Shown here: positions 30,001 through 63,352 of the stretch, in pieces
How the letters are laid out: every line of letters starts with the position of its first letter
How positions within the stretch are numbered: position 1 is the first letter of the stretch
Source of the DNA: Leptolyngbya sp. SIOISBB
GTDB lineage: Bacteria > Cyanobacteriota > Cyanobacteriia > Phormidesmidales > Phormidesmidaceae
NCBI GenBank assembly: GCA_010671905.1
Contig: JAAHII010000002.1
Coordinates: 1 to 64,000, forward strand
DNA: 64,000 nucleotides
Reading direction: 5' to 3'
Notes under the pieces: generated by a model
What the model was told of the DNA's origin: nothing
The model's database searches: none
Seen by the model: the letters and a program-made list of their open reading frames with translations, nothing else
Program-made: the position numbers and the translations under genes

Positions 30001-33000
30001 GAACTTTATCCGTGCCGCTAACTCGATGGTTGGCATCATCAAGGCGATTCTTCTGACTGGCAATGCGGCCTTTGCCCTCTTCTAGCGCCTTCTCAGTTTT
30101 GCTCAGCTCGCGATCAACCTTTTTTCGTTCACGCTCATATTTCTGTGTAAGGGCCTCTTCTGAATCCGGGTTGAGCGATTCAGTGTCTTGAAGCCGCTGC
30201 TTCTCAGCATCGTATTCTGGAACAATTTGCTCAGCCCGCTCCGTCAGTCTCGCTTTCTGCTTACTCAGAGCGTCTTGTTTGTGCTGCAGGTCAGCGAGCC
30301 GTTGTTCAAATTTCTGAACTGATGTTCCCAGCTCGGTTAGTTTAGCCTCTCGATAAGCATCATAGTCCCCTTCTAATTGCTGGATTTGCGCGGTTGCCCG
30401 TTGTTGGCCTACTTGCCGAAACGATGATGTAGGCGAAAAATCTAGGGCTTCCGGCGTGGTTGGGGGCTCCAAATTCAGGGACTTGTGAACCTCTTGCACA
30501 ACTTGAAGTGTCGGCAGCGGTTTCCCTCCAGTCTTGGCATCGACTTCTAGCGCATAGGCGGGCTGCCGAAAGGGATTAGACCCATCGCCGTCGTGTAGTA
30601 ATTTACGCCGCACCGGGATGGCATCGAGGTCGAGTTTTTGGGCATCCAAATCCCACTCCCCGATCGCCTCCTTCTGGGCCTTAATGCCCTGATACTCTTC
30701 CGTCAGCGCCGCATAGAGTTGTTCCTGCAGCTTGAGTGAAGGGTGGGGGTTTTCTGGGGTTGGCGGGCTTTGATCGGCGAGCAAAATCGCCCGCCCGGTC
30801 ACGCGGCGAACTGAGGCCGTCTTAATCTCACCATTTTCATCCGGTTTGCCAGCCGGGTAGTCCATCGCGGCATTGACTTCTGGCCACGCCGACAAGACAT
30901 TTGCTGCCGCCTGATCGCCGTACTGATTCATAAAGTCAGGGACATCAGCCCCCGAAAACTGGCTCTGCCCACTGCCAACAGTGTTGGATTTCAGATGCCG
31001 CATCTTTTTCATGAGGACCGCCAAGGGGCGCTGCTCTGTCGCTAACCCCTTGCCGTACATCAGCTTGAACTGTGGCAAGCCATAGGCACCGGCCACTTGC
31101 CCCCATTGCGGATTGCCCGCCTGATCATGAGTATCCGGTTCATGATCAGATGGATTGAGTTGCCCGCTGCGGTGTGTGCGCCCGATGCTTTGTTCGCAGC
31201 GGTTGACATCAGCATGAGGCTGGAGCATCAGCATGACGCGCTGCCGTTGGTCGGCGGCGCGACGGTCAGCGTGAATCGAGTACCCAGTGGTTAAATTCGT
31301 GATCAGGGCATCGGTTTCTCCCGACTGAAAGCGAGCGATCGCCGCCACTTTTTGCGCCGCGCCTGATTGACGAGAGGCTAAGGTCGCAAACAACTGGCCA
31401 TCGTCCCCTGGTTGATAGACACATTTTTGTTTGCGGCCAGTCATCTCTTCAACGTTGTGACCCGCCTCTTTAATGCGATACTCCATCAATGAAATGGGAT
31501 CGGCGGGTTGCTGACTCCAATCACTCTGCTCAATTTCGGTTTTGGCTTTCTCGTAGAGGGCAGTCGCCATTGGCCCCAGCTCGTCATCAGTAAGATAGTG
31601 AGGCAGAATCTTTTTCTTACCCGACTCATCCGCGTAGGCCCCAATAATCCGAATGGTGCGGGCCTTCTCTAGGTAGCGCTGAAAAAACTCTCCCGCCGTA
31701 ATATTGATCGGCTGGCCAGGTTCAAGACGAGGCATCTGATCAGGCGGATCAGGATGGAGAGCGTTGTGCAAGTCAACCGATTCATTCGTTTCCCGAATGT
31801 AATCCTGCAAGACGCTCTCAGCCGTTTGGGTCAACATAATGACCGGCTTTTTGCCCGCCTCAATCTCTTGATTCGCTAACGTTGCAGTGGCCTCTGCCTT
31901 TAACCCCAGAGCACACACTGCATGTAAATTGTGCGCGACCGACGAAAAGACGGCTGAGTCGATTCCGGCATAGCCAACATGGTTGTCATGGACAAATAAT
32001 TTTTCGCCCGACTCAGATAGTGCGTCATCCATCTCTGGCATTCGGGCCTCTCTGGCCTGATCGAACTGGTTGATCAGTTGAATCAGTCGAGCATTCTCTT
32101 CAGCCCGATCTAGATTTACGGTGACCTCTTGGGCTTCAAAGTCTATGCCACTGTAATCTTTCTGAAAGCGGATACAGCCGCCCGCTTCACTCCACAAGTC
32201 GAAGGCTGATTGCTGCATCGCCGCGCCCCCGACCTGAAGATGCTCAGCAAAGGTAGCTTGATCTTGAGCCGCATCTTTGAAATCGGTCGTGTGGTAGTAG
32301 AGGCGGGCGGCGACCACCGGCTCTTTAATCGCCGTCGCGGAGCTGGCCACAAAGCCCGCCGTCTTCTGCGTCAGGTCTTGAAAATATTCGGTTACCGGCG
32401 CCACGAAGGTGCCAGCGGCAATCTTGATCTCCCGCTGGCGTAGCTCAAACTCGCTCAGCTCAAAACTCCCCGCAGGCCCGCCCGCGTTGTGAGCCTCATC
32501 CGCGATCAGGAATAGTTGTGGCGCTAAGGTATCGAGCAGTTCTCGGCGCTTCTTACTGTTTGGCCCTTTGAGCTGATCGTAGGTGGTCAGCATCAGGTCG
32601 TGCTCGCCGATGTCCCCCGCCTGGGTAAATTGCTTAACTTGCTTATGGTTATCGTTCGGGGTTTTAATCTGAGCAACCCGATTCCCCTGTTTGTCTTCAA
32701 CGGGAATTCTGAGGCCGTTATCAGTGATGAAGGCATTGAAGTGATTGCCCGTATCCGGCCCATCTCGATACAGCAAATCCTTGTACAGCGCGGTGCTGTC
32801 AGTGACGACTGTAGGGATTAGACCTTGCTGGTTAGCATACCGACACAGCCCTGCCACGACACGGGTTTTGCCAATCCCAGTATCGTGACCAATGACGGTG
32901 GCTTGCCCCTTGTACTCATGGTTATGGATGGCTAAGGCCAGCGTATCGATTTGCTCTGCCGCGTAGTGAGCATAGAGTGACTCCAGGGAGTCCTCGCTGA

Positions 33001-36503: not shown

Positions 36504-38981
36504 CTAATTAGTTACTCGATAAACGGCCCGTCGAGTCGTTGAAGACCGACCATAGGACGGGCTAAACCAACCATCAGATTCCCAAGTCAGTGAAGGTGCT
36601 CCAGCATTCGCTCGACTTGAAGAATTGGAGATCACACGAGTACAGCCGACGTTGATGCAGATGCCAATGTGTCCTCGCCCTCGACCTGAATAGTCATCAA
36701 TGATATTGATGTCTCCCGGCTGGGCTTCCGCAGGATTGACGGCGACACCACGTCCATTTTTAATGTCTGACTCAACAGCCAGTACACCCAAACTGCCATA
36801 GGGAGGAGCGCCACCCAATGTGGCAATCCCAGCTCGATGAAGAACATAATTGACCATGCCAGCACAAGCATAGTTGCCGTTATTTGTGCCGGGGATGCGA
36901 CTGCCAGAGAAGCCTTCTGCTTGTACTAGGCGAACGCCTTCCATAATTGCCGCATTGATGTCTCCAGCCGGAACCCCGGTTGTAGTCTCCAAAGTGGAGC
37001 AGGTATTCAGCGCGGTCAAGAATCTTTCGGCCTGTTGAGCTGTGAACTCCATCTTGTCGCCATCGTTGACAATGCGTCGAGCATTAATGAAGTCGGCATT
37101 ACCGTTGCCGATATAGTCATCTAGACCGACTCCGGTGAAGAGGCCGTCACGCATTCCAATAACGGTGATCTTCGCCGAGAGGTCTGGATCATTTGCCAGA
37201 TCCGGGTTATTTACTAAATCAACCCCCAGGACGCGGCCCATCTTGGCATAATTTTCCTCCCACGTCAGTTGCACATAGCCACGACCATAAAAGCAACCAG
37301 CCCCGTAGGTACCACACCCAACCCCCCGTTCTCCGGTCGGTGCCCAGATGCCTTCTAGCTCGGTTGAGATCGTGCCCAGAATGTACGCTATCTGAGCTTT
37401 ATCGGTGACACCCGCTTCGTTCGCAGCGGCAATGATTCTCGGAATATGCTCTCTAGCATTTGCCGCTTCGTTGGAGTGCCGCAACGCTCCGATTAAGGAG
37501 TCTAAGCAAGCATCATCCATCTGAATGGCTGAGCCACCACCGGCACCGTAATAGCTACCGCCGCCTGTTCGGGTGGCAAACTGTTGCAGTTCAGGAGGAA
37601 CCGCGATACCGCCAGTAGCTCCCCCCTTGCCCTCCAGGGGTCCGGTTAAGACAAAGCCCTTCTCTTTTGTAGACCAAAGCGGAACCGGTCCAATAAAGTA
37701 CGGAGTACAGCCTAGATCAACAAAGAATGACTTCTGGCAGTAGCGGGTGTAGAGGGCAAAATCGCCACTACCACCCGATTCATTCGTTCCGGTCAGAACG
37801 ATTTTGAAGACATCGCCAAACGGGACTCGTCCGGTCGGCTCTTTCCCGCCATTCACAATCTTTAGAAGACCCTTACCGCCCTCGACCATTTGCTGACCCT
37901 GACCATTGCCCCCCGCCATCCATTGAGCCCCGTGCATCGGCCCTGGCCCTTCTAACTCTAGATAGGCACACCCTCGCTCTTGAGCGCACTGCACGTTAAA
38001 TCCAGCCTGGTCAGAGCCGGTGATCGAACGCTTGGTCGGCGTGACCCGGTGCTCCATGTGGCCATAGGTGACATCATGGGTCGCACCAATCCCGCCAGTG
38101 ATGGCAGCGATCGGGTTGGGGAAATCGCCAAAGGGCACCTCCGATAAACCGGGCACCTGGCTCAGAACTAAATCCTGCCACCCTTCAAGCTCGCCCAACG
38201 GGATATTCTCAAACCCTGGCAAATCGCCAACCCCGAACTCCTCCAGTATTCCGGCAGGAGCATCGCTCAGGTTGATATCACCAAAAACACCGGTTCCCGA
38301 CAACAGATCAGGAGCCGAGATAATGTCACCAATCGTTCGCTCTCCGAATTTCAGCAGCTCGCTGGTAACGTAGTCCTCTGGACTCAAGAATTCATCAAAT
38401 TTCAAGTCCCCTATCTGTCCGGCTATTTGCAATAATTCAGGCCGTACAACAGAGTCAAATATTCGCTGCACCGGGGCAACTTCATTGAGCTTAAAATCTT
38501 GAATTCCGGTCAGATTTGCCAGACTCCCCAGGCTTTGCCGCGATAGCAAGCTGTCATAGTTAGACAGTGCAAAGTTCGATGGATCAACGCCTGTAGCTCT
38601 ACCAATATCGCCAATGGAGAGCGCTTGCGGATAAAAGCTATTCCCCAGGTCGCCCAACCTGATGACATCTGATAGAGGCGTTCCCGCAGACCAACTACGG
38701 CCTGTATCAAAGCCCAGCTCGGCAGCAATATCCTCGGGCAAGTTCGGGATACTCCCGTCGCGACTGGTACTCAGACTTCCGAACGTCTGAGTGCCCAGTG
38801 ATTCGTAGGCCGGGAGTTCACCGGCCACCTCTTGTAGTTGCTGAAACTCACTGAGGTCTTGTTGAGCGATCGCGGTTCTGATCTCTCCAAGGAGGCCGAG
38901 AAAGGTCAACGAGATGACGGCAGTCGCGATCAGGAGAAGGCGAAGCAATCGTCGTATTAACTTGTGATCAAAGAGGGTCAT
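36504..38981 (-). CDS. Peptidoglycan hydrolase: scaffold + GH19 + NlpC/CHAP-like domains
   Basis: Start ATG 38,981 (MTLFDHKLIRR) has AGGTGA five bases upstream; a longer reading to 39,044 would run through the promoter at 39,010-39,040. A membrane anchor comes first (LLLIATAVISLTFLGLLGEI). Then about 430 residues are paralogous to the protein at 43,167-44,687 (DLPGFENIPLGELEGWQDLV, VPFGDFPNP, VPFGDVFKIV). A GH19 lysozyme/chitinase-like domain follows (GTISTELEGIW, GRGYVQLTWEENY). The C-terminus has a Cys/His hydrolase pattern (YACAGMVNYVLHRAG, GRGHIGICINVG). Probably opens the peptidoglycan for the transfer channel, the task of VirB1 elsewhere. Confidence 0.85.
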   Translation of the reverse strand: MTLFDHKLIRRLLRLLLIATAVISLTFLGLLGEIRTAIAQQDLSEFQQLQEVAGELPAYESLGTQTFGSLSTSRDGSIPNLPEDIAAELGFDTGRSWSAGTPLSDVIRLGDLGNSFYPQALSIGDIGRATGVDPSNFALSNYDSLLSRQSLGSLANLTGIQDFKLNEVAPVQRIFDSVVRPELLQIAGQIGDLKFDEFLSPEDYVTSELLKFGERTIGDIISAPDLLSGTGVFGDINLSDAPAGILEEFGVGDLPGFENIPLGELEGWQDLVLSQVPGLSEVPFGDFPNPIAAITGGIGATHDVTYGHMEHRVTPTKRSITGSDQAGFNVQCAQERGCAYLELEGPGPMHGAQWMAGGNGQGQQMVEGGKGLLKIVNGGKEPTGRVPFGDVFKIVLTGTNESGGSGDFALYTRYCQKSFFVDLGCTPYFIGPVPLWSTKEKGFVLTGPLEGKGGATGGIAVPPELQQFATRTGGGSYYGAGGGSAIQMDDACLDSLIGALRHSNEAANAREHIPRIIAAANEAGVTDKAQIAYILGTISTELEGIWAPTGERGVGCGTYGAGCFYGRGYVQLTWEENYAKMGRVLGVDLVNNPDLANDPDLSAKITVIGMRDGLFTGVGLDDYIGNGNADFINARRIVNDGDKMEFTAQQAERFLTALNTCSTLETTTGVPAGDINAAIMEGVRLVQAEGFSGSRIPGTNNGNYACAGMVNYVLHRAGIATLGGAPPYGSLGVLAVESDIKNGRGVAVNPAEAQPGDINIIDDYSGRGRGHIGICINVGCTRVISNSSSRANAGAPSLTWESDGWFSPSYGRSSTTRRAVYRVTN

Positions 38982-39009
38982 AGAGTCACCTGTGATGAGC
39001 ACAGGCCAT

Positions 39010-39040
39010 ACTCTACGAGGTAGATATCTCTCAGATATCT
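39010..39040 (-). promoter_or_regulatory. Shared promoter module 1 (peptidoglycan-hydrolase operon)
   Basis: On the minus strand: GATAT-CTGAGA-GATAT, then 8 nt, then TAGAGT as -10. The ATG is 28 nt further on. The 11-bp direct repeat occupies the -35 position. Same layout as the four other modules in the window. Confidence 0.7.
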
Positions 39041-39113
39041 CCAAACCCCCTTGATTCAGTTAACTTCCATGTAAAAAGATTACTGGAGATGAAGGATGAT
39101 GGACTGCCAGGGA

Positions 39114-41253: not shown

Positions 41254-43163
41254 CAGAACACCTCACTGAATTCGGCCAAGGCAATAGGATTGAGCACTTT
41301 CGCATTCGCACCGGCACCTGACGGAGATGAATCCAAGACCGGAATGGGAGCATTGAAGCGTGAGGAATGGGCATCCGATTCACCCTCTTCATCAACGGGA
41401 AGGGGTAATAGTTCCTCAACCAATGCCTGACAGATTTGCATCTGCTGATTAGCTTTGTCTGTATCTCTATACGTCTGCGGCGACCTCGATACAAGCTTTG
41501 CCCTAAGCTTCTCCCAAGTGTCTCTACTCCAATCGTCTTCTTTCAGGTCTCCTTTAGGAATTTTGATTTGAGAGATCAGAGGAATGGACGTTTCGTCTTT
41601 CCTGGCAAACCCAGGTGAGACCAAGACACAGCGCCCTGTGGGCAGACGATTAAACTGGGCTGGCTCGACAATGTGGCGCTTCTGTACCTGCTCGGAAACC
41701 GTTCGTGAGGCACCGCCTTTCCCGCCAGAGTTACGCGATTTTTGCTTAATTTTGACCTCTTCCTCACCGAGATAGTCGCTAAACATGCGAGCGCTATCGG
41801 CATCCTGGGGGTTAAAGATGGCTTTCGTTGCACAGCCGCCAAGAATGGAGCGGGCAATATCGCGCTTGTAGGCATCCTCAAGCTGCGTAATATTCTGAAA
41901 GCCGATCATGGTGCAAAGGCCATCGGAACGGTTTTCGTTGAGCCATTGAGTTAGATAAGGCAGATACAGCGTCGGCAATTCATCGATCGCTAGCAGCAGC
42001 GGATCCTTACGCCGCTTGGTAACATTCATCGTCACCATCATGTGCAGCACGGTCGCCACCAGGGGAGAAACGGCTTCGCGGCGACGGCGATCTAGCCCCA
42101 GAATGACGAGCTGCCGCCCTTCCAACTCAATCGGCAACGTCGTCTTGCCACAGAACGTTGAAATCAGCTCTGGAGCCATAAACCGGGAGAAGACTTTACC
42201 CGTTGTCCCCAGAACTCCCGCTACAGTCTTCTCTGAGTCTTTGAGCTGCATCAATTGGCTAAAGGCGTAATAGACCCAGTGAGAAATCTGCCAGCGATCT
42301 CGCAGTTGCCCGAGGTCTCCCAATCGCTTGGCTTCCATGATGCGATCGGGTAATGAACTCAGGCCCAAAGCGGCACTTGCGGACATCAAATCCGGGATGG
42401 GCATGGCCTTCGCCAACATCAAGATTGCCTGTGTCAACTGGTCACCCGCATCAGCAAAGAATTTATCTTCGCTACTGTTCGAGCTGCGGGCGAAGTTGCG
42501 GTTCATGACCGTGGCGATCTGCCTTGCCATCAGCGCATCATCCGGGTCAGTCATGAAATCGAGAGGGTTGCAAACCTCTGACTCTGGATAGCCAGGGGCG
42601 AAAATTCGCACGTCATAGCCGCGCTTAGCCGCATACGCAGCCAGACATTCCGCCTGCGAAGGATATTTGAAGTCATAGACCAGCGCCGGGTAGCCTTCAT
42701 CTAAAGCGGAGCGAATGAGGGGATTGATGATGCTGAAGGTTTTACCGGAACCTGGCCCTCCCGCAACGGCAATCCCCCTTTGGGCATCTGGCAGAAAGAG
42801 CGTTTTACCAGAGGACTTCTTCTGACCAGGGCGTTTCCGTGATCCGACATAGAGTGCGACTGAGTTGTGAACTCTCGCCTTCAATTGCTTCAGCGCTTGC
42901 TTCTTCGCCTTCGCCTGCTCCTTCGCACTACTGAGAGACCCCCGCGCAATCTTACCGGACTTGCCACCTCGACCCATGACTTGAAAAACAATGACAGCCA
43001 ATCCCAAGCCCAACAAAATGAGGCCATCAGTGCCCATAAGTGGGGTCAAAGCTGGCCCTAATGAATCAATCAGGGTCGATGATGTCGATGAAACAGGCGA
43101 TTCTTCTTCCACCTGAGCCAGCGGCAGTTCATGAAGCAAGGCATCACCTGTAAGCATCTCCAT
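41253..43163 (-). CDS. VirD4/TraG-type coupling ATPase, 636 aa
   Basis: Type IV coupling protein that would bring the relaxase-DNA complex to the secretion channel. One membrane span lies at about residues 46-62. Walker A is GGPGSGKT at 135-142 and Walker B LLLAIDE at 389-395. Further family blocks are visible (YDFKYPS, CNPLDFM, MIGFQNITQLEDAY, LGGCATKAIFNPQD). Size and layout are normal. It lies 4 bp from the upstream gene and overlaps the downstream one, inside the T4SS operon. Confidence 0.93.
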   Translation of the reverse strand: MEMLTGDALLHELPLAQVEEESPVSSTSSTLIDSLGPALTPLMGTDGLILLGLGLAVIVFQVMGRGGKSGKIARGSLSSAKEQAKAKKQALKQLKARVHNSVALYVGSRKRPGQKKSSGKTLFLPDAQRGIAVAGGPGSGKTFSIINPLIRSALDEGYPALVYDFKYPSQAECLAAYAAKRGYDVRIFAPGYPESEVCNPLDFMTDPDDALMARQIATVMNRNFARSSNSSEDKFFADAGDQLTQAILMLAKAMPIPDLMSASAALGLSSLPDRIMEAKRLGDLGQLRDRWQISHWVYYAFSQLMQLKDSEKTVAGVLGTTGKVFSRFMAPELISTFCGKTTLPIELEGRQLVILGLDRRRREAVSPLVATVLHMMVTMNVTKRRKDPLLLAIDELPTLYLPYLTQWLNENRSDGLCTMIGFQNITQLEDAYKRDIARSILGGCATKAIFNPQDADSARMFSDYLGEEEVKIKQKSRNSGGKGGASRTVSEQVQKRHIVEPAQFNRLPTGRCVLVSPGFARKDETSIPLISQIKIPKGDLKEDDWSRDTWEKLRAKLVSRSPQTYRDTDKANQQMQICQALVEELLPLPVDEEGESDAHSSRFNAPIPVLDSSPSGAGANAKVLNPIALAEFSEVF

Positions 43164-45553: not shown

Positions 45554-47236
45554 TTAATCCGCTTGAAAGATAAATTCGTCGGCAACGAAGAGCATGACCG
45601 GGGCATCGCTGCCGTGGTACCAGATACGGGGTTGATTCTCGTAGTCATCAATGCGACCCTCCACCCGTGCCTGCTCAATAGGCAGTACAGCATCGGCAGC
45701 ACCGGCCAATAAGCCCGCCAGGATATTGACCGCCCCATTTTCAACGGTGCTGACACTCGTATCGCCCCCAATTATCGTCGTGGATGAATCGGGGCGATTT
45801 AGCAGTTCGCCAACGTTGCCCAATGCCCCGAGTGCCGCTAACTGAAGTTCTGCGGCCCGAATCTCACCTGTGTTCTGGATTTCGCGAGCTATTAATGGCT
45901 GGCCCTCACGTCCGGCAATCACCAGATTTTGATGCGGAATGGACATAACTTGCTGTTGTCCGTCCTGGGTGACAACCACATCTGTCACGTACATTTGCAA
46001 CAGACCGCTGCCCGCAATGACATTCACTTCGGCAACCAACAGCGTCCCAGCTTCTAGCGCTACCTCGCCCCGGCTGCCATAAAGTGGTTCAGAGAGTCTT
46101 AGCGCCGTGCGCTGCGACTGTTGCTCATTTGCCAGGTCTTGCGCCCAATAAATTGGCGTCTCTAGAGTTGCCTGAGCATAAGTCCCCGCCTGCACTGTGA
46201 TCAGGCTATTGCCGAGGATAGCGGCCTCCTCAGCCGCGTATGTATTATCAACCTGCTTCGGCCCTGCCTGAAAAGCCGGAATTGGCGCAGAGGCCACACC
46301 AGCATCACTAAACGAAGGTACTGCGGGGGGCATTTCCGCTTGTGGCGATGCGATTTCCCCAATATTCCCTGGAGCGGCGATTGGCACGGCGGCGATCGTG
46401 TTGGCTGGCAAAGCACTCCCACTGCCATAAGAACCATAGCCAGTCAGGTTGGTGAGCTGTTCTTGTGGAGAGAGCGGCGGGGGCGCTGGCGGTAGTGAGC
46501 GAGCCACAGACGTCGGCGCGACGGGAGTCGCCACGGTCGGCGGACGAGGACTCGCCACGGTCGTCGGACGAGGCACCGGCCTATTGGTGATAGTCGGCTG
46601 TGTCTGATTCGGTTGATTCGTCTGATTCGTCGCTTGCGCCTGCTGCTCTTGACGACGCTGTAGTTGATTGCGCAGCGCCAACAGGTCGGCGGCACTCACC
46701 TCTGAAGTCCCCCCCTGGCCAGCCTCGTCTTGGAGCTGCATCGCTAACTGCTGAGTCCCAAGAGCATTTTGGGTCTTGAGTGAACCAATCTGTTGCTCTT
46801 GTTGACGCAGAGCCGATTGCATCGGGTCTTCCGGCTCTTCCACTTCCACGGGTGTCACAGTAGAGGAACCCAACAAATCGCGACTGCCAGCATTTTGGAT
46901 GGACTGAACCACTAGCCCGACAATCAGCAAACAGCTCCCAGCAACGCCTCCGACAAAGATCAACTTCACCAATGGATTCGCCCAAAGTGGAGTCTTGGTC
47001 TTGCCCTGGTCATCCACTTGGAGATCGCCATCCTCGTCGTCAGATGGAGCGGCTTCGCCATTCTCGGCATCCAGAACAGGTGTAGAGACAGAAGCCTCTG
47101 ACTCACCTTCTATCCCCATCCATGACGCCATCTCCTCTGTAGATGTCCCCCTTTCAGATCGCAGAGCCGCACCCATATCAGAGGGGTCCAACAACTGCAT
47201 GTTGGGGACTGGCTCACGGCCATTCGTAACTGCCAT
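45554..47236 (-). CDS. VirB10/TrbI-like core-complex protein, 560 aa
   Basis: Cytoplasmic N-terminus, one membrane span at about 86-110 (LVKLIFVGGVAGSCLLIVGL), a coiled Gln-rich stretch, and a Pro/Thr-rich spacer (PRPTTVASPRPPTVATPVAP). The C-terminal domain shows the TrbI pattern (GTYAQATLETPIYWA, LEAGTLLVAEVNVIAGSGLL, TSVSTVENGAVNILAGLLAG). VirB10 proteins span the envelope and link inner and outer membrane complexes. Spacing to the VirB8-like gene is 2 bp. Confidence 0.85.
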   Translation of the reverse strand: MAVTNGREPVPNMQLLDPSDMGAALRSERGTSTEEMASWMGIEGESEASVSTPVLDAENGEAAPSDDEDGDLQVDDQGKTKTPLWANPLVKLIFVGGVAGSCLLIVGLVVQSIQNAGSRDLLGSSTVTPVEVEEPEDPMQSALRQQEQQIGSLKTQNALGTQQLAMQLQDEAGQGGTSEVSAADLLALRNQLQRRQEQQAQATNQTNQPNQTQPTITNRPVPRPTTVASPRPPTVATPVAPTSVARSLPPAPPPLSPQEQLTNLTGYGSYGSGSALPANTIAAVPIAAPGNIGEIASPQAEMPPAVPSFSDAGVASAPIPAFQAGPKQVDNTYAAEEAAILGNSLITVQAGTYAQATLETPIYWAQDLANEQQSQRTALRLSEPLYGSRGEVALEAGTLLVAEVNVIAGSGLLQMYVTDVVVTQDGQQQVMSIPHQNLVIAGREGQPLIAREIQNTGEIRAAELQLAALGALGNVGELLNRPDSSTTIIGGDTSVSTVENGAVNILAGLLAGAADAVLPIEQARVEGRIDDYENQPRIWYHGSDAPVMLFVADEFIFQAD

Positions 47237-49119: not shown

Positions 49120-49212
49120 CGTTTCCTAACCAACCTCTAAAACATCAAGAGCAGAGAGAACAGAGAGAGCAGAGAGAGTATCGTTTCCTATGGCCCTCTA
49201 AAACATCAAGAG
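49118..49212. repeat. Direct repeat flanking the 3' end of the tandem-repeat gene
   Basis: ATCGTTTCCTA followed by CCTCTAAAACATCAAGAG occurs at 49,118-49,151 and again at 49,180-49,212, separated by GAGA-rich sequence. The second copy contains the stop codon of the tandem-repeat gene, so a gene end has been duplicated into the intergenic gap. Confidence 0.7.
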
Positions 49213-50880
49213 TGTTGAAGACGACTGAATCACCTCCGCTGCCGCTGCCATCGGCTCAGTTTGCTGGCGGCGACTCATTGCGGCTAACTCCTCAGCCGCT
49301 TCAGCTTGAACCACCGCATCCGCTGCAAACTGTTGGCGCAATTGAATGGTCTGGCCATAGCCAGCAACCTCAATCGAGGACTGCTGAGCGAGCATCGCGC
49401 TCATATTTTTCATCACGTCTTGGGTGACATCGAGGTCTTGTGCCTCAGTCGCCAGATCCACAATCTCGGTCAGCGTTTCGTCCGTAGCTTCGACCTCCGC
49501 GACGATGGCTTGCTGGCCTTCCTCACTCAGCAAGGTGTGGGAAAACCCAATAGAAGCCGCCCGTGAGATTTCTTTGCCAATAGTTTCAGAGAGAGCAACC
49601 GGGTTGACGTTGAATCGGTCCACTTGCTGACTCGCGCCAGTTGGTGAACCATTTTCGACGCCGCCCATCACCGTATCCCAAACGGATAGCTGAGAAGCGA
49701 TAACATCCGGAACGCCCAATGCGCCGGTAACAATGTTTGGGGTTGTTCCAAAGGAACCAACAACGTTCTCAATCAAGGCCCCTGAAGCATTTCCGGCAAG
49801 GATATTCCAAGAGGCCAAAGAGTCCCCAAGCGCCGGGATTTTGAGGTCAATTTCGGCAGAGTAGCCGCCGCCGCCGCCGAAGAGGTCCTCCAAACCGCCG
49901 AGGCCAAGGTCTCCCAAGTCGCCTAAAATCCCCTCAAGGTCCCCCCAACCGCCATCCAAAATATCTTCCAGACCACCGCCACCGTTTAAGATCCCATCCA
50001 AGATGCCGCCCAGACCACCGCCACCGTTTAAGATCCCATCCAAGATATCTTCCAGACCACCGCCACCGTTTAAGATCCCATCCAAGATGCCGCCCAGGTC
50101 TCCATCCAAAATATCTTCCAGACCACCGCCACCGTTTAAGATCCCATCCAAGATGCCGCCCAGGTCTCCGTTCAAAATATCTTCCAGACCACCGCCACCG
50201 TTTAAGATCCCGTCCAAGATGCCGCCCAGGTCTCCGTTCAAAATATCTTCCAGACCACCGCCACCGTTTAAGATCCCGTCCAAGATGCCGCCTAGGTCTC
50301 CGTTCAAGATGCTTTGGAGGTCGCCATTCAAGATGCTGTCGAGATCGCCATTGAGGATGCTGTCGAGGCCACCGTTCAAGATGCTGTCGAGGTCGCCATT
50401 GAGAATACTTTGGAGATCGCCATTGAGGATGCTGTCGAGGCCACCGTTCAAGATGCTGTCGAGGTCGCCATTGAGAATACTTTGGAGATCGCCATTGAGG
50501 ATGCTGTCGAGGTCGCCATTCAAGATGCTGTCGAGATCGCCATTGAGGATGCTGTCGAGGTCGCCATTCAAGATGCTTTGGAGATCTCCGTTCAGAATCG
50601 ACGTTCCTTGCCCCCAAGTCCCCGACGTGGGATTACTACTAAAACTAAATAGCGCCTGTTCTTGGGGACTCAAGCTCTGATAAAACTCAAAAATCGAAAC
50701 CCCCTCTGCACTCGCTGGCTGAGGGAGAGAGCTGCTGTCCCCCGCCGATGGGGCAGTAGCCGGATCAGTAAAACCGTGTGCCCCACCACCAACACTGAAG
50801 CAGACGAGAACAGCGACAGGCAGGCTGTACGACAACAGTTGAAGAGGACTAGGTCTTTGTCTTGTGTAACTGCGTTCCAT
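49198..50880 (-). CDS. Tandem-repeat VirB5-like exported protein, 560 aa
   Basis: A signal peptide (LLSYSLPVAVLVCFSVGGGA) is followed at about residues 92-195 by 13 octapeptides SILNG(D/G)L(D/Q/G), then by about five longer units built from GGILDGILNGGGGLEDIL. The C-terminal 200 residues resemble VirB5/TrbJ proteins: an alpha-helical region with MKNMSAMLAQQSSIEVAGYG and AAEELAAMSRRQQTEPMA. The position between VirB4 and VirB6 is the normal VirB5 place. DNA repeats of 24 bp are nearly identical and likely unstable. I infer a pilus-tip or adhesion protein with an inserted repeat stalk; the family call rests on position and the C-terminal pattern. Confidence 0.65.
   Translation of the reverse strand: MERSYTRQRPSPLQLLSYSLPVAVLVCFSVGGGAHGFTDPATAPSAGDSSSLPQPASAEGVSIFEFYQSLSPQEQALFSFSSNPTSGTWGQGTSILNGDLQSILNGDLDSILNGDLDSILNGDLDSILNGDLQSILNGDLDSILNGGLDSILNGDLQSILNGDLDSILNGGLDSILNGDLDSILNGDLQSILNGDLGGILDGILNGGGGLEDILNGDLGGILDGILNGGGGLEDILNGDLGGILDGILNGGGGLEDILDGDLGGILDGILNGGGGLEDILDGILNGGGGLGGILDGILNGGGGLEDILDGGWGDLEGILGDLGDLGLGGLEDLFGGGGGYSAEIDLKIPALGDSLASWNILAGNASGALIENVVGSFGTTPNIVTGALGVPDVIASQLSVWDTVMGGVENGSPTGASQQVDRFNVNPVALSETIGKEISRAASIGFSHTLLSEEGQQAIVAEVEATDETLTEIVDLATEAQDLDVTQDVMKNMSAMLAQQSSIEVAGYGQTIQLRQQFAADAVVQAEAAEELAAMSRRQQTEPMAAAAEVIQSSSTLLMF
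49975..50600 (-). repeat. Coding tandem repeats (24-bp units and ~66-bp units)
   Basis: From about 50,284 to 50,600 there are 13 units of 24 bp, and from about 49,975 to 50,283 longer units of about 66 bp with a smaller internal period. Units differ mainly at single bases. Both repeat types encode ILNG/ILDG motifs, so the long unit seems to have evolved from the short one by gain of a GGGGLED segment. Confidence 0.85.
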
Positions 50881-58500: not shown

Positions 58501-59691
58501 TTAAAGTTCGAGTGGCGATCGCCCAACTTCCAATTGCCGTTGCCGCCGCTGGCGGTGCTTCTGCTCTGGCGTTTGTTGATGCTGCCAGACTTCCATCTGT
58601 TGATGCGCCAACTGCTGAGCATAGGCCACTTCCTCGCGCTGTCCGAATTCATGCCTCATTTCCCGCGCTGTCTCGCCCTGCCGGACAATTTCTACAATCT
58701 CTCGTTCGGAATAGCCTGCCGAGATCGCTTCTCTCGCCACGACTCGATCGCACTCTGGTCCCGGTTCAGTGATCGTTGAGTGAGCATACTGCTCATACAG
58801 TTCTCGTAGCCTCCGCTGATACTCCGCATAGTCATCGAGTTTTTGCTGACATTCGGCAGAACTAGCATTCGCCACTTGCTGCAAAGTATTGTCCTGAGCG
58901 GTGTCGTAATAAATAGAGTGATATTTTTGAAGCCCCTCAAAGGAGTAGGCCCGTCCCAAACGCCGCCCGGCAAAAGCAGAGCCATCAAGCCCAAAGCTGA
59001 TGCCAGTATAGCGATCGCTCCCACGCCGGAGGCGGATATCAATGTCCTGGGCCTTGAGTCGGGTGACCAGTAGTGCCATGGTGGGCTTATCAGCGATGGC
59101 AGTGTCGATCTCGGCCCACAGCTTTTCCTTGGGCAAAACCTCGCCCGTGCGTTCTTTCCGTCTGGCCTCTCCAGTGGTTAGGTTCTTCTGTTCAGTGATG
59201 GGCCGTGTCGGACAGGCAACTAAGCCAAACCGTTCTTCTAGCGATCGCTCTACTTGTCGAATCCGCAACTTGCTGAAACTATCGCTAACCCATTCATTGG
59301 CGGTGTTGACCGTGGCTGTAACGATATGCCAATGCTGCACCCCACGTTTATGTTCTTGGTCATGGTGCTGCACCGCGAAATAGGCACAGCGCTCATGCCC
59401 CATTTCTGAGAGTAGTTGCCGCGATACTGCACCCATCTGCCTCTGAGTTAATTGTTCTCCCGGAGTCAGGCTAACTGAGTAATGAGCGGCAATTTTCTGC
59501 ACAGGTTTACGCCTGGGAGCCTCAGCACTCCACTCCAATTCTCGCGTCAGCTCCTCTACGGTTTGGCCCATCATGTTAGAGGCCAGAATCGCATCCGCAG
59601 TCGATTGCTGGGAGCTCAATTGCTTCTCGGGGTTGAGCACATAGGCACAGAGACTATGAGCGTCACTTCCTTTAGTCACCTTGACAAGCAT
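58501..59691 (-). CDS. Relaxase (mobilisation nuclease), 396 aa
   Basis: Relaxase domain in the first ~250 residues. The metal-binding three-His motif is HHDQEHKRGVQHWH; a candidate catalytic Tyr is in CAYVLN at about residue 17; LTPGEQLTQRQM and QVERSLEERFGL follow. This domain matches the PF03432-type relaxases (MOBP/MOBV group; exact class not decided). The C-terminal region is Gln- and Arg-rich. The enzyme would nick oriT and pilot the strand into the T4SS. It lies 2 bp from the MobC-like gene. Confidence 0.88.
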   Translation of the reverse strand: MLVKVTKGSDAHSLCAYVLNPEKQLSSQQSTADAILASNMMGQTVEELTRELEWSAEAPRRKPVQKIAAHYSVSLTPGEQLTQRQMGAVSRQLLSEMGHERCAYFAVQHHDQEHKRGVQHWHIVTATVNTANEWVSDSFSKLRIRQVERSLEERFGLVACPTRPITEQKNLTTGEARRKERTGEVLPKEKLWAEIDTAIADKPTMALLVTRLKAQDIDIRLRRGSDRYTGISFGLDGSAFAGRRLGRAYSFEGLQKYHSIYYDTAQDNTLQQVANASSAECQQKLDDYAEYQRRLRELYEQYAHSTITEPGPECDRVVAREAISAGYSEREIVEIVRQGETAREMRHEFGQREEVAYAQQLAHQQMEVWQHQQTPEQKHRQRRQRQLEVGRSPLEL

Positions 59692-59693
59692 GG

Positions 59694-60083
59694 TTAAGAG
59701 TTTGATTCCGCTAATGGGGACAATTTGTTTTCCCCGACCGCCTCATGGAGCTGCTGCAAAATTTCCTGAATCGAAATGCGCTGCTCCATGACGGCCTGCC
59801 GCTGCAACACTCTCATCGCATCGCGCAAAGCAGAGAGCTGATGGATAAATTTGTCTGGCACTTGGCCTGCCGCTTCATCCACCAAAACACCCAGCGCCTC
59901 ATTTAAAATTGCCCCCAATGCGTAGAACTGACGGCAGGTTGGATCATCACTACCGATGTCAGCCAGCGCTAATTCTTTTAGATAAGCCGATGGTTGCCTT
60001 TTCGAGCGACCCTGAATCGCCCCTATTTCTTCTGGGGTAAAGGTCACCGTCACTCGCGGGGGTCTTGAACTTGTAGTGGCCAT
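59694..60083 (-). CDS. MobC-like relaxase accessory protein, 129 aa
   Basis: The N-terminus (VTVTFTPEEIGAIQGRSKRQ, then PSAYLKELALADI) has the beta-strand and two-helix pattern of a ribbon-helix-helix DNA-binding protein. The rest is helical (LNEALGVLVDEAAG, LRDAMRVLQRQAVMEQRISI). Directly upstream of the relaxase and co-transcribed, as for MobC. It would bind oriT and help the relaxase open it; oriT is therefore expected in 60,084-60,340. Confidence 0.75.
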   Translation of the reverse strand: MATTSSRPPRVTVTFTPEEIGAIQGRSKRQPSAYLKELALADIGSDDPTCRQFYALGAILNEALGVLVDEAAGQVPDKFIHQLSALRDAMRVLQRQAVMEQRISIQEILQQLHEAVGENKLSPLAESNS

Positions 60084-60303
60084 ATTCCCTCACCTCATAA
60101 GGTTTGCCAAAAATGCAAAACGCGACCGACCCCAGTGGGGCGATCGCGCAAACCAGAGAAGTGCTGATGAATCGAAGGAGTGGTGTGAAGTTGCAGATGT
60201 TTTTCTTGTAGCCTATCTACCCTGGCTTAGCCAATCCATTTCACAAACAGCAATAGTTGGTCTCTAGAATCATCCACATTTTTTTACAAAAAAACCTGTG
60301 ATT
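60084..60303. other. Intergenic region, expected site of oriT
   Basis: By comparison with other mob loci the nick site should lie just upstream of mobC. I see no well-known nick core. A HIP1 site at 60,140 and a purine-rich stretch are the only marks. Promoter of the mob genes must also be here. Confidence 0.35.
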
Positions 60304-60335
60304 GCGATATGTGAGAGATATCTGCCCGCTACGAT
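60304..60335 (+). promoter_or_regulatory. Shared promoter module 5 (toward the 12-bp array)
   Basis: On the plus strand: GATAT-GTGAGA-GATAT, 8 nt, then TACGAT. Orientation is reversed relative to the other four, and so is the gene direction downstream. Predicted start of transcription is near 60,342. Confidence 0.75.
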
Positions 60336-60343
60336 GCCCACCA

Positions 60344-60442
60344 ATGCCAAAAGCGATCGCCGCTGATGATGATTTTGAAGCGTTGTTCGTTGCAGATGGC
60401 GCAGACCCAGAACAGCGATCGCTCTCGGCTTCACGCTCATAG
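60344..60442 (+). CDS. Possible micro-ORF, 32 aa
   Basis: MPKAIAADDDFEALFVADGA, then DPEQRSLSASRS. Starts at or next to the predicted transcript start, so it would be nearly leaderless; no ribosome site. Its stop overlaps the ribosome site of the next micro-ORF. Low support. Confidence 0.3.
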   Translation: MPKAIAADDDFEALFVADGADPEQRSLSASRS

Positions 60443-60451
60443 AGGAACGAT

Positions 60452-60547
60452 ATGGATACAACCATTGAACGAGTCAGCAGCTACCGTCAGCATCCAGAGT
60501 TTCAGCCCAACAGGCTGGCACAACTCAACGAGATCGATCCGGAGTGA
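60452..60547 (+). CDS. Possible micro-ORF, 31 aa
   Basis: MDTTIERVSSYRQHPEFQPN, then RLAQLNEIDPE, with AGAGGA six bases before the ATG. It directly precedes the 12-bp array and is placed behind module 5. The sequence looks protein-like but is too short to classify. Confidence 0.45.
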   Translation: MDTTIERVSSYRQHPEFQPNRLAQLNEIDPE

Positions 60548-60600
60548 GCGCGATCGACAACTGCCACAACTTGCAATCACGGAAATTGCAATGAAACAGT

Positions 60601-61108
60601 CAGGTTGATGAGCAGGGGAAATGTCAGGTCGCAGGGCAGGTCACTGGTGAGGACCGCAGTTAGGGGAAACAGCAGAGATTTCGTCAGCTTTCAAGTCAGG
60701 TCAGTAGATAGGTGGGTTGTCATGCTCAGCAACAAGGCCATCGTCAGGTTGATGAGCAGCCCTGCGGCAAGGAAATTTGTCAGGCCAAATAGCAGTTGTG
60801 CTGTCAGGGAGATGAGCAGGTTGACTGCCAGGTGATCCTGCAGTTCAAGAGGAAGGGATATCGTCAGGCCGTTTTCCAGGCAGTGAGTGAGGAGACGGGG
60901 CAGGTGAATGATCAGAAGAAAAATCAGATTTTGGGTGAGGCATATTGTCAGGTTCTAAGGCATCGCAGTGGTGAAGATATCTGTCAGGAAAATTAGCAGC
61001 AAGTGCGTCAGGTCTCGATACAGGCTGATTATGAGACAGGAAGGTAGGGATATTCGCAGGTATTCATCCAGGTGTAGAAGCAGGTTAGTAGTCAGCAATT
61101 TATGCAGG
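60601..61108. repeat. Array of 43 sites spaced exactly 12 bp (CAGG-type beat)
   Basis: Starting at 60,601 every twelfth position opens a CAGG-like tetramer. By hand count 43 consecutive positions have A as second base, 39 have G as third, 30 read CAG and 21 read CAGG. Stronger units form a 24-bp pattern (GTCAGGTTGATGAG then CAGG) at 60,599, 60,743 and, with one change, 60,803. In the register where CAG is a codon there are several in-frame TAG stops (60,661; 60,709; 60,790; 60,994; 61,045), so it is not a gene. It ends right at the ribosome site of the gene at 61,123. Candidate centromere or other multi-site protein-binding array for the HTH/ParA pair that follows. Confidence 0.85.
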
Positions 61109-61122
61109 CCGAGGGTTAGCTC

Positions 61123-61731
61123 ATGAGTGATGTTGATTTACGCAGACTATTTAGTGAGAAGGCTGACAGCCTACCTGAAGATGCAGCACTAGAGATTTCG
61201 GCGATAGAGGCTGTTAGACAGTGTCTTCCAGCTATCCGTAAGGCCAAAAAAAAGAAAATGTCTTGGGAGACTGTCGCCACAATTGTTAGAGACATTGTGC
61301 AGGAGTCGCATGGAGTAGAACTTCGCCTCACCGGCAATACGGTTCGTTACTACTACTACCAGCTCACGCAGAAAAAAAAGCGAGCACACTCTACCGCTGC
61401 ATCTCCCAAACCGCGATCGCGTTCCACCTCCACCACATCTCGAAAATCTAGCGCCCCTGTCCCCGTTACAACGACGCCTCAACCCACCCAGCCTTCGGTC
61501 CCCGCCGTAACGTCAGTGCCGGAACCAGTACCGGAACCTGTGGCGCGATCGCCAGCAGTAGCACCGGAACCAGAACCCGTGATCTCGTCTGTTGTTGATG
61601 AATCACCCATCCCTGAAACCCAGCAGGCAGCACCAACGGAAGAACTGCACCCCAATCGCTTTCGAGATCGTTTCAAGAAGGTCACGAATCCCAGAACGAC
61701 GACGGGATATGAACACTGTAAATCTCTATGA
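61123..61731 (+). CDS. HTH-type DNA-binding protein with Pro-rich tail, 202 aa
   Basis: Residues 25-85 (AIEAVRQCLPAIRKAKKKKM, then SWETVATIVRDIVQ, LTGNTVRYYYYQLTQKKKR) form a helical domain with the look of a helix-turn-helix found in mobilisation and partition proteins. Residues 90-180 are Ser/Pro/Glu-rich and unstructured. The tail is basic. The GAGGG ribosome site overlaps the end of the 12-bp array. It overlaps the ParA-like gene by four bases (ATGA). I infer that it binds the array and contacts the ATPase. Confidence 0.65.
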   Translation: MSDVDLRRLFSEKADSLPEDAALEISAIEAVRQCLPAIRKAKKKKMSWETVATIVRDIVQESHGVELRLTGNTVRYYYYQLTQKKKRAHSTAASPKPRSRSTSTTSRKSSAPVPVTTTPQPTQPSVPAVTSVPEPVPEPVARSPAVAPEPEPVISSVVDESPIPETQQAAPTEELHPNRFRDRFKKVTNPRTTTGYEHCKSL

Positions 61732-62528
61732 GGAATCAACTCATGACTAACTCAACTCAACGCAAACGTGCCGTCATGCTTGTTCCTGGTAAGGGGGGCA
61801 CAGGCAAAACTTTATTTGCCCGGTTGCTCTATTACGCCCTGGTCGAAGCCGGAGTCAAGGTCATTGGGTTCGACTCAGATACCGAAAACCCAGAGCTGGC
61901 TAACTATCACTCCCAGCAAAAATATCAGGTCTACAAAGGCAACCTCCTAGAAATTGAAGGCTCCCACAAGCTGCTGGAAATGCTGGAGAAAAAGAAGCCG
62001 GATTTGGCTCTGATTGATATGCCAGCGGCCAGCGGACATCAGACCCGCGATCGCATGGAACACTTTAACCTGCTAGATCTGAGTGAAGACAAGGAGATGC
62101 CGTATCGCTTCACCTTTGTCTGTGTTTTGGATATTGGTGCCCCCTCAGTTCACTCCTTCAAAGATGTGATGGCTTTCTGCGGCGATCGCGCTGACTATGT
62201 AGCTGTCCGTAATCAATTTTGGGAAGACGGCAGCAGTTCAGAAGAGAGTAGTTTTGCAATTTGGGAGCAATCAGATGCCTACAAACTATTTGAGTCACTG
62301 AAGGGCATCGAGATTGCCATGCCTGCTTTAGATCGGCTGACCTTTCAAGAGATGCATCCCAGCACGAATTTCTTTGATGTTGCCAAGTTGTCGGTCGGCC
62401 ATCGGCTGATCACGCAGTCGTTTTTGCGGCGAGGGGTAGCTGAGTTGAACTATGCAGCCTCCTATTTGGGGCTACCTCAGCCCAAGGCTGAGCCGCAACC
62501 CGTGACTCGCGCAACAGAGGCGGCATGA
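61728..62528 (+). CDS. ParA/MinD-like ATPase, 266 aa
   Basis: Deviant Walker A PGKGGTGKT at about 20-28 and Walker B-like LALIDMPAASG near 96-106. Similar to the TraL/MobD group of ParA-type ATPases that accompany plasmid transfer genes, as well as to partition ATPases; sequence alone does not decide. The first ATG may be internal: ATG 61,743 (MTNSTQRKRAVML) is also possible. Overlaps by four bases with both neighbours, so three genes form one unit. Confidence 0.8.
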   Translation: MRNQLMTNSTQRKRAVMLVPGKGGTGKTLFARLLYYALVEAGVKVIGFDSDTENPELANYHSQQKYQVYKGNLLEIEGSHKLLEMLEKKKPDLALIDMPAASGHQTRDRMEHFNLLDLSEDKEMPYRFTFVCVLDIGAPSVHSFKDVMAFCGDRADYVAVRNQFWEDGSSSEESSFAIWEQSDAYKLFESLKGIEIAMPALDRLTFQEMHPSTNFFDVAKLSVGHRLITQSFLRRGVAELNYAASYLGLPQPKAEPQPVTRATEAA

Positions 62529-63352
62529 GCAACAATTCGATGAATGGTTCCGACCGGCAGGTTCCCGGTCGGAACACCTCAAAACGAGAACTATCACTGC
62601 CAGAGGACTCACTCATCCACGCCATTGGTGATGTCGGGCAAACTGTCGATCGGCTGCAAATTAGTGTTGAACGGCAAATTCGAGAACTCACGGAGTATGT
62701 CAACCAATGCGAGAGGAATCACCAGGAGGACATGGGCCATTGGCGGACAGTGACGGAGGAGTTGGCCCAACTCCTCCACATCAAAACGCAAGCGACCCAA
62801 GAGGTGAGCAACAGTTACATGAGACTCGCCGAACACTTGGCGAAATTCAACAACTACTTACTGATGTCCGAGTCAACATTGAGCAAGGTCGAGCAGCCTT
62901 TGCTCAGTTTGTCGAAAGCACTCCCCAGCTTGAGCGATGCTTCAGTGCTAGAACCGTCAGGGATGAGTTCATTGCAGATGCAGGAAGTCTTGCAGGCGAT
63001 CGCGGAGGTCCAAACCGCCATCCAGCAGATGCAGGAGGGCATGAAGCAGACCTTACGCCAGATACACCAAGGCGGAATCGCGTTCAGCCAGCCCAAAAAA
63101 GAAACGTCGATTTGGACTGACTTGGCGAACTGGAAAGCGGGAATGTTCTGGTTTGGAATGGGCTCACTATTCGTCGCCGGGATGATGTTTGTGGTGTTTC
63201 GCGGCAGTGGCTTTCAACAGGCGATGAGGGCCATGCAGTTACAGGGCGGAATGGTCGATGCCCGCCTGGAGCGAATTGAAATCTGGCTCGGCATCGAGGG
63301 AGTTGACGATGAAACCCCAGAATTTGAAGACCAACCCATGCCTGAAGAATAA
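62525..63352 (+). CDS. Coiled-coil membrane-anchored protein, 275 aa
   Basis: Long helical region at about 35-190 (VDRLQISVERQIRELTEYVN, LRQIHQGG) then one membrane span at about 211-233 (FWFGMGSLFVAGMMFVVF), and an acidic C-terminus. The overlap with the ParA-like gene suggests a shared complex. It could anchor a relaxosome or partition complex to the membrane. Family not recognised. Confidence 0.65.
   Translation: MSNNSMNGSDRQVPGRNTSKRELSLPEDSLIHAIGDVGQTVDRLQISVERQIRELTEYVNQCERNHQEDMGHWRTVTEELAQLLHIKTQATQEVSNSYMRLAEHLAKFNNYLLMSESTLSKVEQPLLSLSKALPSLSDASVLEPSGMSSLQMQEVLQAIAEVQTAIQQMQEGMKQTLRQIHQGGIAFSQPKKETSIWTDLANWKAGMFWFGMGSLFVAGMMFVVFRGSGFQQAMRAMQLQGGMVDARLERIEIWLGIEGVDDETPEFEDQPMPEE

Follow-up and report, generated by a model that had tools for sequence, protein, structure and literature searches.

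Gene organisation around the array

The 64 kb of DNA analysed here (the window) form the start of a 463,482-base contig from an 8.3-Mb genome with cyanobacterial relatives. An array of short direct repeats lies between a relaxase/MobC-like gene pair on the minus strand and a divergent operon on the plus strand, which encodes in turn a DNA-binding (HTH) protein, a ParA-like ATPase and a third, coiled-coil-like protein. The features of the locus are:

58501–59691, minus strand: MOBP-like relaxase gene (Pfam Relaxase, E 2.6e-21; the NCBIfam MobP relaxase match is below its cut-off)
59694–60083, minus strand: small MobC-like gene, named by position
60084–60600: intergenic region running from the divergent mobilisation genes to the array, probable oriT region
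60563–60574, plus strand: candidate oriT core formed by a conserved 12-base sequence, GCCACAACTTGC, with 26 bases between it and the array
60601–61116, plus strand: the array, 43 units of 12 bp without gaps (approximate consensus (G[T/G])CAGG(T)), where the HTH protein is proposed to bind
61123–61731, plus strand: HTH protein gene (202 aa), with a DNA-binding domain at about residues 24–90, a low-complexity linker and a conserved C-terminal tail
61192–61392, plus strand: the DNA-binding domain (residues 24–90), which in close relatives varies in step with the array word; its recognition helix is predicted to begin at about residue 70
61630–61728, plus strand: the C-terminal tail (residues 170–202), conserved together with the ATPase
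61728–62528, plus strand: ParA-like ATPase gene (266 aa, KGGTGKT), overlapping the HTH gene by 4 bases and homologous to R751 TraL
62525–63352, plus strand: third gene (275 aa); its matches are weak and of coiled-coil type, and several relatives have a homologue in the corresponding position

The original prediction, made from the letters of the window, had set an HTH gene at the array end and a ParA-like ATPase gene behind it. Both are found there, with starts at 61123 and 61728 and the array ending at 61116. The last array unit holds a ribosome-binding-site-like GAGGG, and a scan of 60084–61200 found neither a sigma-70-like promoter nor a terminator. The translation of the third gene contains one hydrophobic segment near residues 205–228. 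Homologues of the small MobC-like gene were found at two related loci only (L068 and L069), and a mobC-annotated gene occupies the same place in PLSDB stretches including L003–L007.

The window also carries genes for a TraD/VirD4-type coupling protein (41256–43163) and a TrbI-like protein (45557–47236; 34.6 bits against a cut-off of 35), and the plasmid is thus probably conjugative. A separate ParA (214 aa) and ParB_N-domain (316 aa) pair of ordinary type is located about 25 kb away on the same contig (C2:86793–88384, equivalent to L087:2793–4384), which suggests that the array locus is probably not the only segregation locus. Near the transfer-like genes, an 846-aa ORF (36507–39044, minus strand) matches chitinase class I (Glyco_hydro_19) at residues 584–626, and its product is perhaps a wall-lysing transfer protein. 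In the same neighbourhood, nested tandem repeats of 24, 36, 42, 66 and 72 bp at 49968–50594 fall within a 560-aa ORF (49201–50880, minus strand) that has no Pfam match at 1e-3. A 2,560-aa ORF occupies 27038–34717 on the minus strand. Elsewhere in the window, tandem pairs of 110 and 114 bp (6480–6699 and 14193–14416), whose consensus units are largely reverse complements, flank the outer sides of two stretches of 15-bp repeats (about 7318–7827 and 13084–13611), an arrangement that could possibly represent a large inverted duplication.

An AlphaFold model of the HTH protein contains four helices at residues 27–89, with mean pLDDT of 86–94 in the blocks spanning residues 31–80 and low values elsewhere. 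Any homology to StbA of plasmid R388 is remote. A single profile comparison with hhalign gives E 9e-6 at 83% probability, while in a PDB profile search StbA (7pc1) ranks ninth of ten (E 0.31), behind eight matches that are computer-designed helical proteins, judging by their names. Among structural matches, Foldseek ranks the StbA DNA-binding domain (7pc1) third (E 1.5), and VIA-align ranks it first (Z 5.4, rmsd 6.9), tied with unrelated rows. The protein at the same place in a Methylorubrum plasmid (L012) shows weak links to both the HTH family and StbA, and R751 TraK has no detectable similarity to the HTH protein.

The ATPase matches CbiA/ParA-type P-loop ATPases, and KGGTGK is invariant in all twelve aligned rows, which agrees with the Walker A form KGGxxK[T/S] that, alongside SGxxGK[T/S], marks StbB/TraL-like ATPases. 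Its profile aligns with R751 TraL over 206 columns (probability 98%, E 4e-14), and with R388 StbB only the Walker motif aligns. No ParB domain was found in the HTH protein by Pfam or NCBIfam and the confident part of its model is all-helical, so that it does not resemble the partner protein of a type I ParABS system. Type II (ParMRC) and type III (TubZRC) systems were rejected on account of the motor, which is of the CbiA/ParA P-loop type and not actin- or tubulin-like.

Structure of the 12-bp array

It was found that the 43 units follow one another in phase, as had been predicted. The A at the second position is present in every unit, the G at the third, predicted to be nearly constant, in 39 of 43, the first C in 33 and the fourth-position G in 32. 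Position 11 is G in 26 units and position 12 is T or G in 36, extending the word to about GTCAGGT. By comparison, the best in-phase column in 300 first-order Markov shuffles of 60401–61300 reached 26/43. The expected autocorrelation at lag 12 is also seen: over 60597–61116, same-base identity is 0.411, 0.421, 0.434, 0.426 and 0.485 at lags 12, 24, 36, 48 and 60, compared to 0.184–0.310 at all other lags from 2 to 60. A motif model scores 225 on the array against 124 for the best of eight shuffles, a comparison that favours real arrays since these were given 60 restarts and shuffles 15. The 5' edge of the array is sharp, the eight 12-mers before unit 1 matching GTCAGGT at 0–3 of seven positions. 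The 3' edge is softer, with the next two 12-mers matching at five of seven and running into the HTH gene start.

A sliding period test on its own is not specific, given that 19 of the 115 tiles of the plasmid pass it, the array's own tile included. Eighteen of the 19 do so at periods that are multiples of three, and tiles of this kind were taken to be mostly coding repeats. Confirmation of the array derives instead from the invariant column, the motif model and the comparison with relatives.

Bases between the words match one another at 0.22–0.31 over lags 12–180, where 0.28 is expected from composition; the word is therefore not simply the trace of tandem duplication. The weaker 24-bp pattern proposed originally proved to be mostly the second harmonic of the 12-bp beat. 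Even- and odd-numbered units have similar profiles, and comparing spacers two units apart shows no excess similarity (p 0.95). The one exception is the GT prefix, which adjacent units share less often than expected (4 pairs against 7.2). The peak at lag 60 does not reflect a significant 60-bp super-period (p 0.07 for spacers, p 0.10 for GT prefixes).

The array is apparently non-coding, in line with the prediction, TAG stops lying in its CAG frame at 60661, 60709 and 61045. These stops, the lack of any Rfam match up to E 1 in 60000–61800 and the occurrence in relatives of spacings that are not multiples of three together argue against a coding or known RNA element.

Related loci and the exchange of word and DNA-binding domain

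A tblastn search of PLSDB with the HTH protein found nothing, while ATPase homologues occur on 88 PLSDB records, 60 of them named Nostoc, Tolypothrix, Calothrix, Trichormus or Microchaete. Homologues were hence reached mainly through the ATPase and gene order. A sample of 388 genomes of the class contains 37 with an ATPase homologue, the window's own genome among them. By annotation, the order relaxase (minus), small gene (minus), gap, HTH gene (plus), ATPase (plus) and third gene (plus) is found in eight of twelve PLSDB stretches (L002–L007, L011 and L012); L008 and L010 lack it, L009 departs from it and L013 is truncated by the start of its record. At 45 of 51 loci an ORF of 100 aa or more terminates close to the start of the ATPase gene, the ORFs at L008, L130, L136 and L137 looking unlike the HTH family. 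Two similar HTH-like ORFs lie in tandem upstream of one ATPase gene at L082 (4252–4860 and 3841–4248, minus strand), as if the DNA-binding gene had been duplicated.

Only L009 and L010 rose above the shuffle maximum, weakly, in a period scan of 11 PLSDB gaps. A wider scan was passed by 19 of 49 loci (of 51; L013 and L072 were too short). It includes the same plasmid twice in two cases (L002/L119 and L009/L127), and the stretch scanned for L070 was extended by 250 bp into a predicted ORF. L003, L009/L127, L132 and L137, at periods of 18, 15, 21 and 9 respectively, were not taken as arrays. From an additional set of 46 loci, L207 was dropped as an archaeal Walker-motif match; nine of the 38 testable among the remaining 45 passed. 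Three of the nine (L166, L167 and L201) form a doubtful group and the other six lie at already-known places, except L168, the array of which is known from repeat finding only. Failures include L162 (same place as L070), owing to an ORF start set upstream of the array, and, narrowly, L170 and L173 (same places as L076 and L077). Of the 23 testable loci in this set that were assigned to Nostocales, none passed. Related arrays upstream of homologous genes are thus present in other cyanobacteria, as the original prediction anticipated; it had also counted homologous loci without any array against itself, and this is borne out in part, many loci of the family showing no long array. By eye, the gaps between mobC and the HTH gene in L003–L007 contain a few G-rich elements about 16–20 bp apart (CTAGGG, CTGGGGG), possibly a short, looser cluster of sites replacing the long array.

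Motif models were built for 15 stretches, L077 being included despite failing the period test because L076 had passed. L122–L124 were left out of the comparison as their scores barely exceed the best shuffle (79/65, 85/72 and 82/68). The twelve arrays compared (window, L068, L069, L070, L073–L077, L079, L084 and L085) score 1.3- to 3.3-fold above the best of eight shuffles, these having had fewer restarts. Words at the related loci include GTGCG, AGTCAA, GTTGA, GGTGA, CTGAA and CTACTCC, mostly 10–13 bp apart. The commonest spacing is 12 bp in the window, L068, L069, L084 and L085, 11 or 12 bp in L070, 10–13 bp in L074, and 10–12 bp and multiples in L076 and L077. It largely alternates between 10 and 13 bp in L073 and L079, and it alternates between 11 and 13 bp in L075. 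The unbroken phase that had been claimed holds for the window copy and fails in L068, the nearest relative found, where alignment appears to show one 11-bp and one 13-bp unit. Identical 6-mer pairs are commonest at 33, 33, 45 and 60 bp in L076, L077, L070 and L084 (about 3, 3, 4 and 5 units), which suggests that these arrays grew by duplicating several units at a time.

A plus-strand copy of the core GCCACAACTTGC, with one mismatch or none, lies a short way 5' of the array in the window, L068, L069, L073, L074, L075, L079 and L085, whatever the array word, and likewise in L002/L119, where no long array was found. Two mismatches are seen in L070, L076, L084 and a few loci where chance is possible. 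A total of 51 loci were examined, the core having been chosen after several of them had been viewed. The core may represent all or part of the relaxase site, and possibly oriT.

Three loci allow word and protein to be compared while the ATPase hardly varies: L068 (same genome place as Oscillatoria sp. CS-180), L069 (Halomicronema sp. CCY15110) and L070 (filamentous cyanobacterium CCP5). Identities to the window, in that order, are 95%, 87% and 93% for the ATPase (residues 12–255), 85%, 76% and 79% for the HTH protein tail (last 33 residues), and 91%, 39% and 22% for the DNA-binding domain. The corresponding words are CAGG, as in the window, GNGC (read as GTGCG) and AGTCAA. Word and DNA-binding domain hence change together under a near-constant ATPase, and this we regard as good, though indirect, evidence for the array being read by the HTH domain. 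In the window–L068 comparison, differences fall at 9 of 172 sites in the four word positions and at 36 of 343 in the spacers (Fisher p 0.048). Furthermore, a table of each motif against each of the twelve arrays is close to block-diagonal, with z of 8–22 within a motif's own class and values near those of shuffles elsewhere. The exceptions are AGTC, common to L070, L074 and L079 (z 6–20), and a few other cells at z 3–4.

The close pairs window/L068, L076/L077 and L084/L085 each share a word. Overall domain identity nevertheless does not predict the word: L070 and L074 have AGTC in common with only 12 of 65 domain residues identical, yet L073 and L079, identical at 53 of 65, use GTTGA and AGTCTA. 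The predicted recognition helices of the last two are separated by two substitutions (S to Y and K to R), ten more lie elsewhere in the domain, and the alternating 10/13-bp spacing is largely the same despite the different words. The residue aligned to Arg75 of the window is arginine in the window/L068, L070, L074 and L079, the words of which contain GTC, and also in L084/L085, where CTACTCC does not. It is lysine in L069, L073 and L075 (the last with GGTGA) and glutamate in L076/L077 (CTGAA). We hypothesise that this residue tracks the word, a pattern noticed after the fact and comprising few independent cases.

These observations can tentatively be extended to a family of DNA-binding filaments with an exchangeable address, a picture we consider possible with the odds somewhat against it. 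Spacing would be set by protein contacts and the letters by a few recognition-helix residues, with domain and array replaced together under the same ATPase, giving each plasmid its own identity. For the locus itself we favour a variant of the Stb type, distinguished by its long array and exchangeable specificity, over a new category.

Proposed role and comparison with known systems

For R388, PMC3098194 describes stbDRs consisting of two sets of five 9-bp repeats with two-nucleotide spacing, which are bound by StbA and mediate its effects on stability and transfer. It relates RP4 TraK/TraL and the pTF-FC2 proteins to the Stb proteins. The R388 gap responds to our period test at period 11 (0.457, shuffle maximum 0.346). 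TTGCATCAT has no match on the R388 plus strand, the repeats there reading the other way.

We propose, with a probability of roughly 0.7, that the HTH protein encoded at 61123 binds the array as a centromere-like site, and that the locus belongs with the Stb (R388)/TraKLM (IncP) loci as a variant with a long array, placed at the origin of transfer of a cyanobacterial plasmid that is probably conjugative. The original suggestion of a centromere or relaxosome platform was a sound guess. Its claim that the array matches no known type does not hold: the layout is that of stbABC/TraKLM loci at oriT, and the R388 stbDRs are themselves direct repeats with a fixed beat of 11 bp.

Phasing and co-variation suggest that each HTH domain would read one short word (about GTCAGG), and that neighbouring HTH proteins would bind side by side at 12-bp steps, dozens of them coating about 0.5 kb. 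Disordered linkers and conserved tails would project from this filament and engage the ParA-like ATPase, a contact proposed because the tail is conserved together with the ATPase. By analogy with R388, the ATPase and the third, perhaps membrane-anchored, protein may then determine where the plasmid and its oriT lie, striking a balance between stable inheritance and presentation to the transfer machinery. Since the array covers the operon leader, autoregulation by the HTH protein is also probable.

The array and HTH protein could alternatively form a pure relaxosome or oriT accessory platform that only aids relaxase loading and nicking and has no role in segregation. The array does adjoin the candidate oriT core and mobilisation genes, the contig has its separate ParA/ParB_N pair, and NAH7 TraD, a StbA homologue, binds the oriT region according to PMC12421886. 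We nonetheless regard a platform of this kind as unlikely, as deletion of stbA from R388 leads to plasmid loss together with raised transfer, with the repeats mediating the StbA effects (PMC3098194), and 43 sites seem more than an accessory site would need.

A ParA-like ATPase, a DNA-binding adaptor and a repeat array within one operon would also fit a stand-alone ParA-type partition system with a new centromere, i.e. the main centromere of the plasmid. This appears improbable in view of the ordinary ParA/ParB_N genes some 25 kb distant, the company of relaxase genes, and R388, in which the ATPase StbB is not needed for stability (PMC3098194). That the array is solely an autoregulatory operator is less probable still. 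Its end lies 6 bases before the HTH start codon and the GAGGG falls in its last unit; however, half a kilobase of sites far exceeds an ordinary operator, and in L084 and L085 the modelled array stretch lies about 360–605 bp upstream of the HTH start. A decayed coding repeat or neutral tandem repeat that binds no protein is suggested by the period of 12, a multiple of three like the periods of other plasmid tiles, but can be set aside as highly improbable given the in-frame stops, spacers no more alike than composition predicts, spacings of 10, 11 and 13 in relatives, and words that co-vary with the HTH domain in close relatives.

The novelty lies in how long and regular the array is, in its presence in cyanobacteria, and in the swapping of word and domain while the ATPase stays almost unchanged. 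No described cyanobacterial Stb/TraKLM system or array of this type was recognised in a literature search of limited depth, covering its sources in part. If the long-array Stb/TraKLM reading is correct, the coupling of inheritance and conjugation by these systems extends to cyanobacterial plasmids, with arrays several times longer than those of R388. Near-identical ATPases with different DNA-binding domains and matching arrays would then constitute natural experiments, through which one could address the residues responsible for choosing the word, the determinants of the spacing and any role of the word in deciding which plasmids can coexist.

In the ParR/parC and TubR/tubC centromeres of type II and III partition systems, a small adaptor binds arrays of short sites about 10–12 bp apart. 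The window array resembles these in its spacing, whereas the motor is ParA-like and the confident part of the adaptor model is all-helical, unlike a ribbon-helix-helix protein. IncP plasmid R751 shares with the window a relaxase of MOBP type, the divergence of mobilisation genes (TraI/TraJ in R751) from a three-gene operon (TraK-L-M in R751) and a TraL-type ATPase of clear profile homology. It differs in that TraK is not similar to the HTH protein and that its traJ–traK gap has no phased array in the same test; phased repeats are thus not common to the whole stbABC/TraKLM group.

R388 stbABC corresponds to the window in gene order, with divergent mobilisation genes and an HTH gene followed by an ATPase gene (4-bp overlap) and a third gene, in the fixed-beat direct repeats upstream of the HTH gene, and perhaps in a remote similarity of the DNA-binding domain. 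The two differ in relaxase (MOBF in the IncW plasmid R388, MOBP-like in the window), in the ATPase motif (a divergent SGxxGK[T/S] versus KGGTGKT) and in the HTH protein, StbA comprising 141 aa and the window protein 202 aa, with a linker and a tail conserved among close relatives. They also differ in the repeats themselves, which number two sets of five on an 11-bp beat in R388 and 43 sites on a 12-bp beat in the window.
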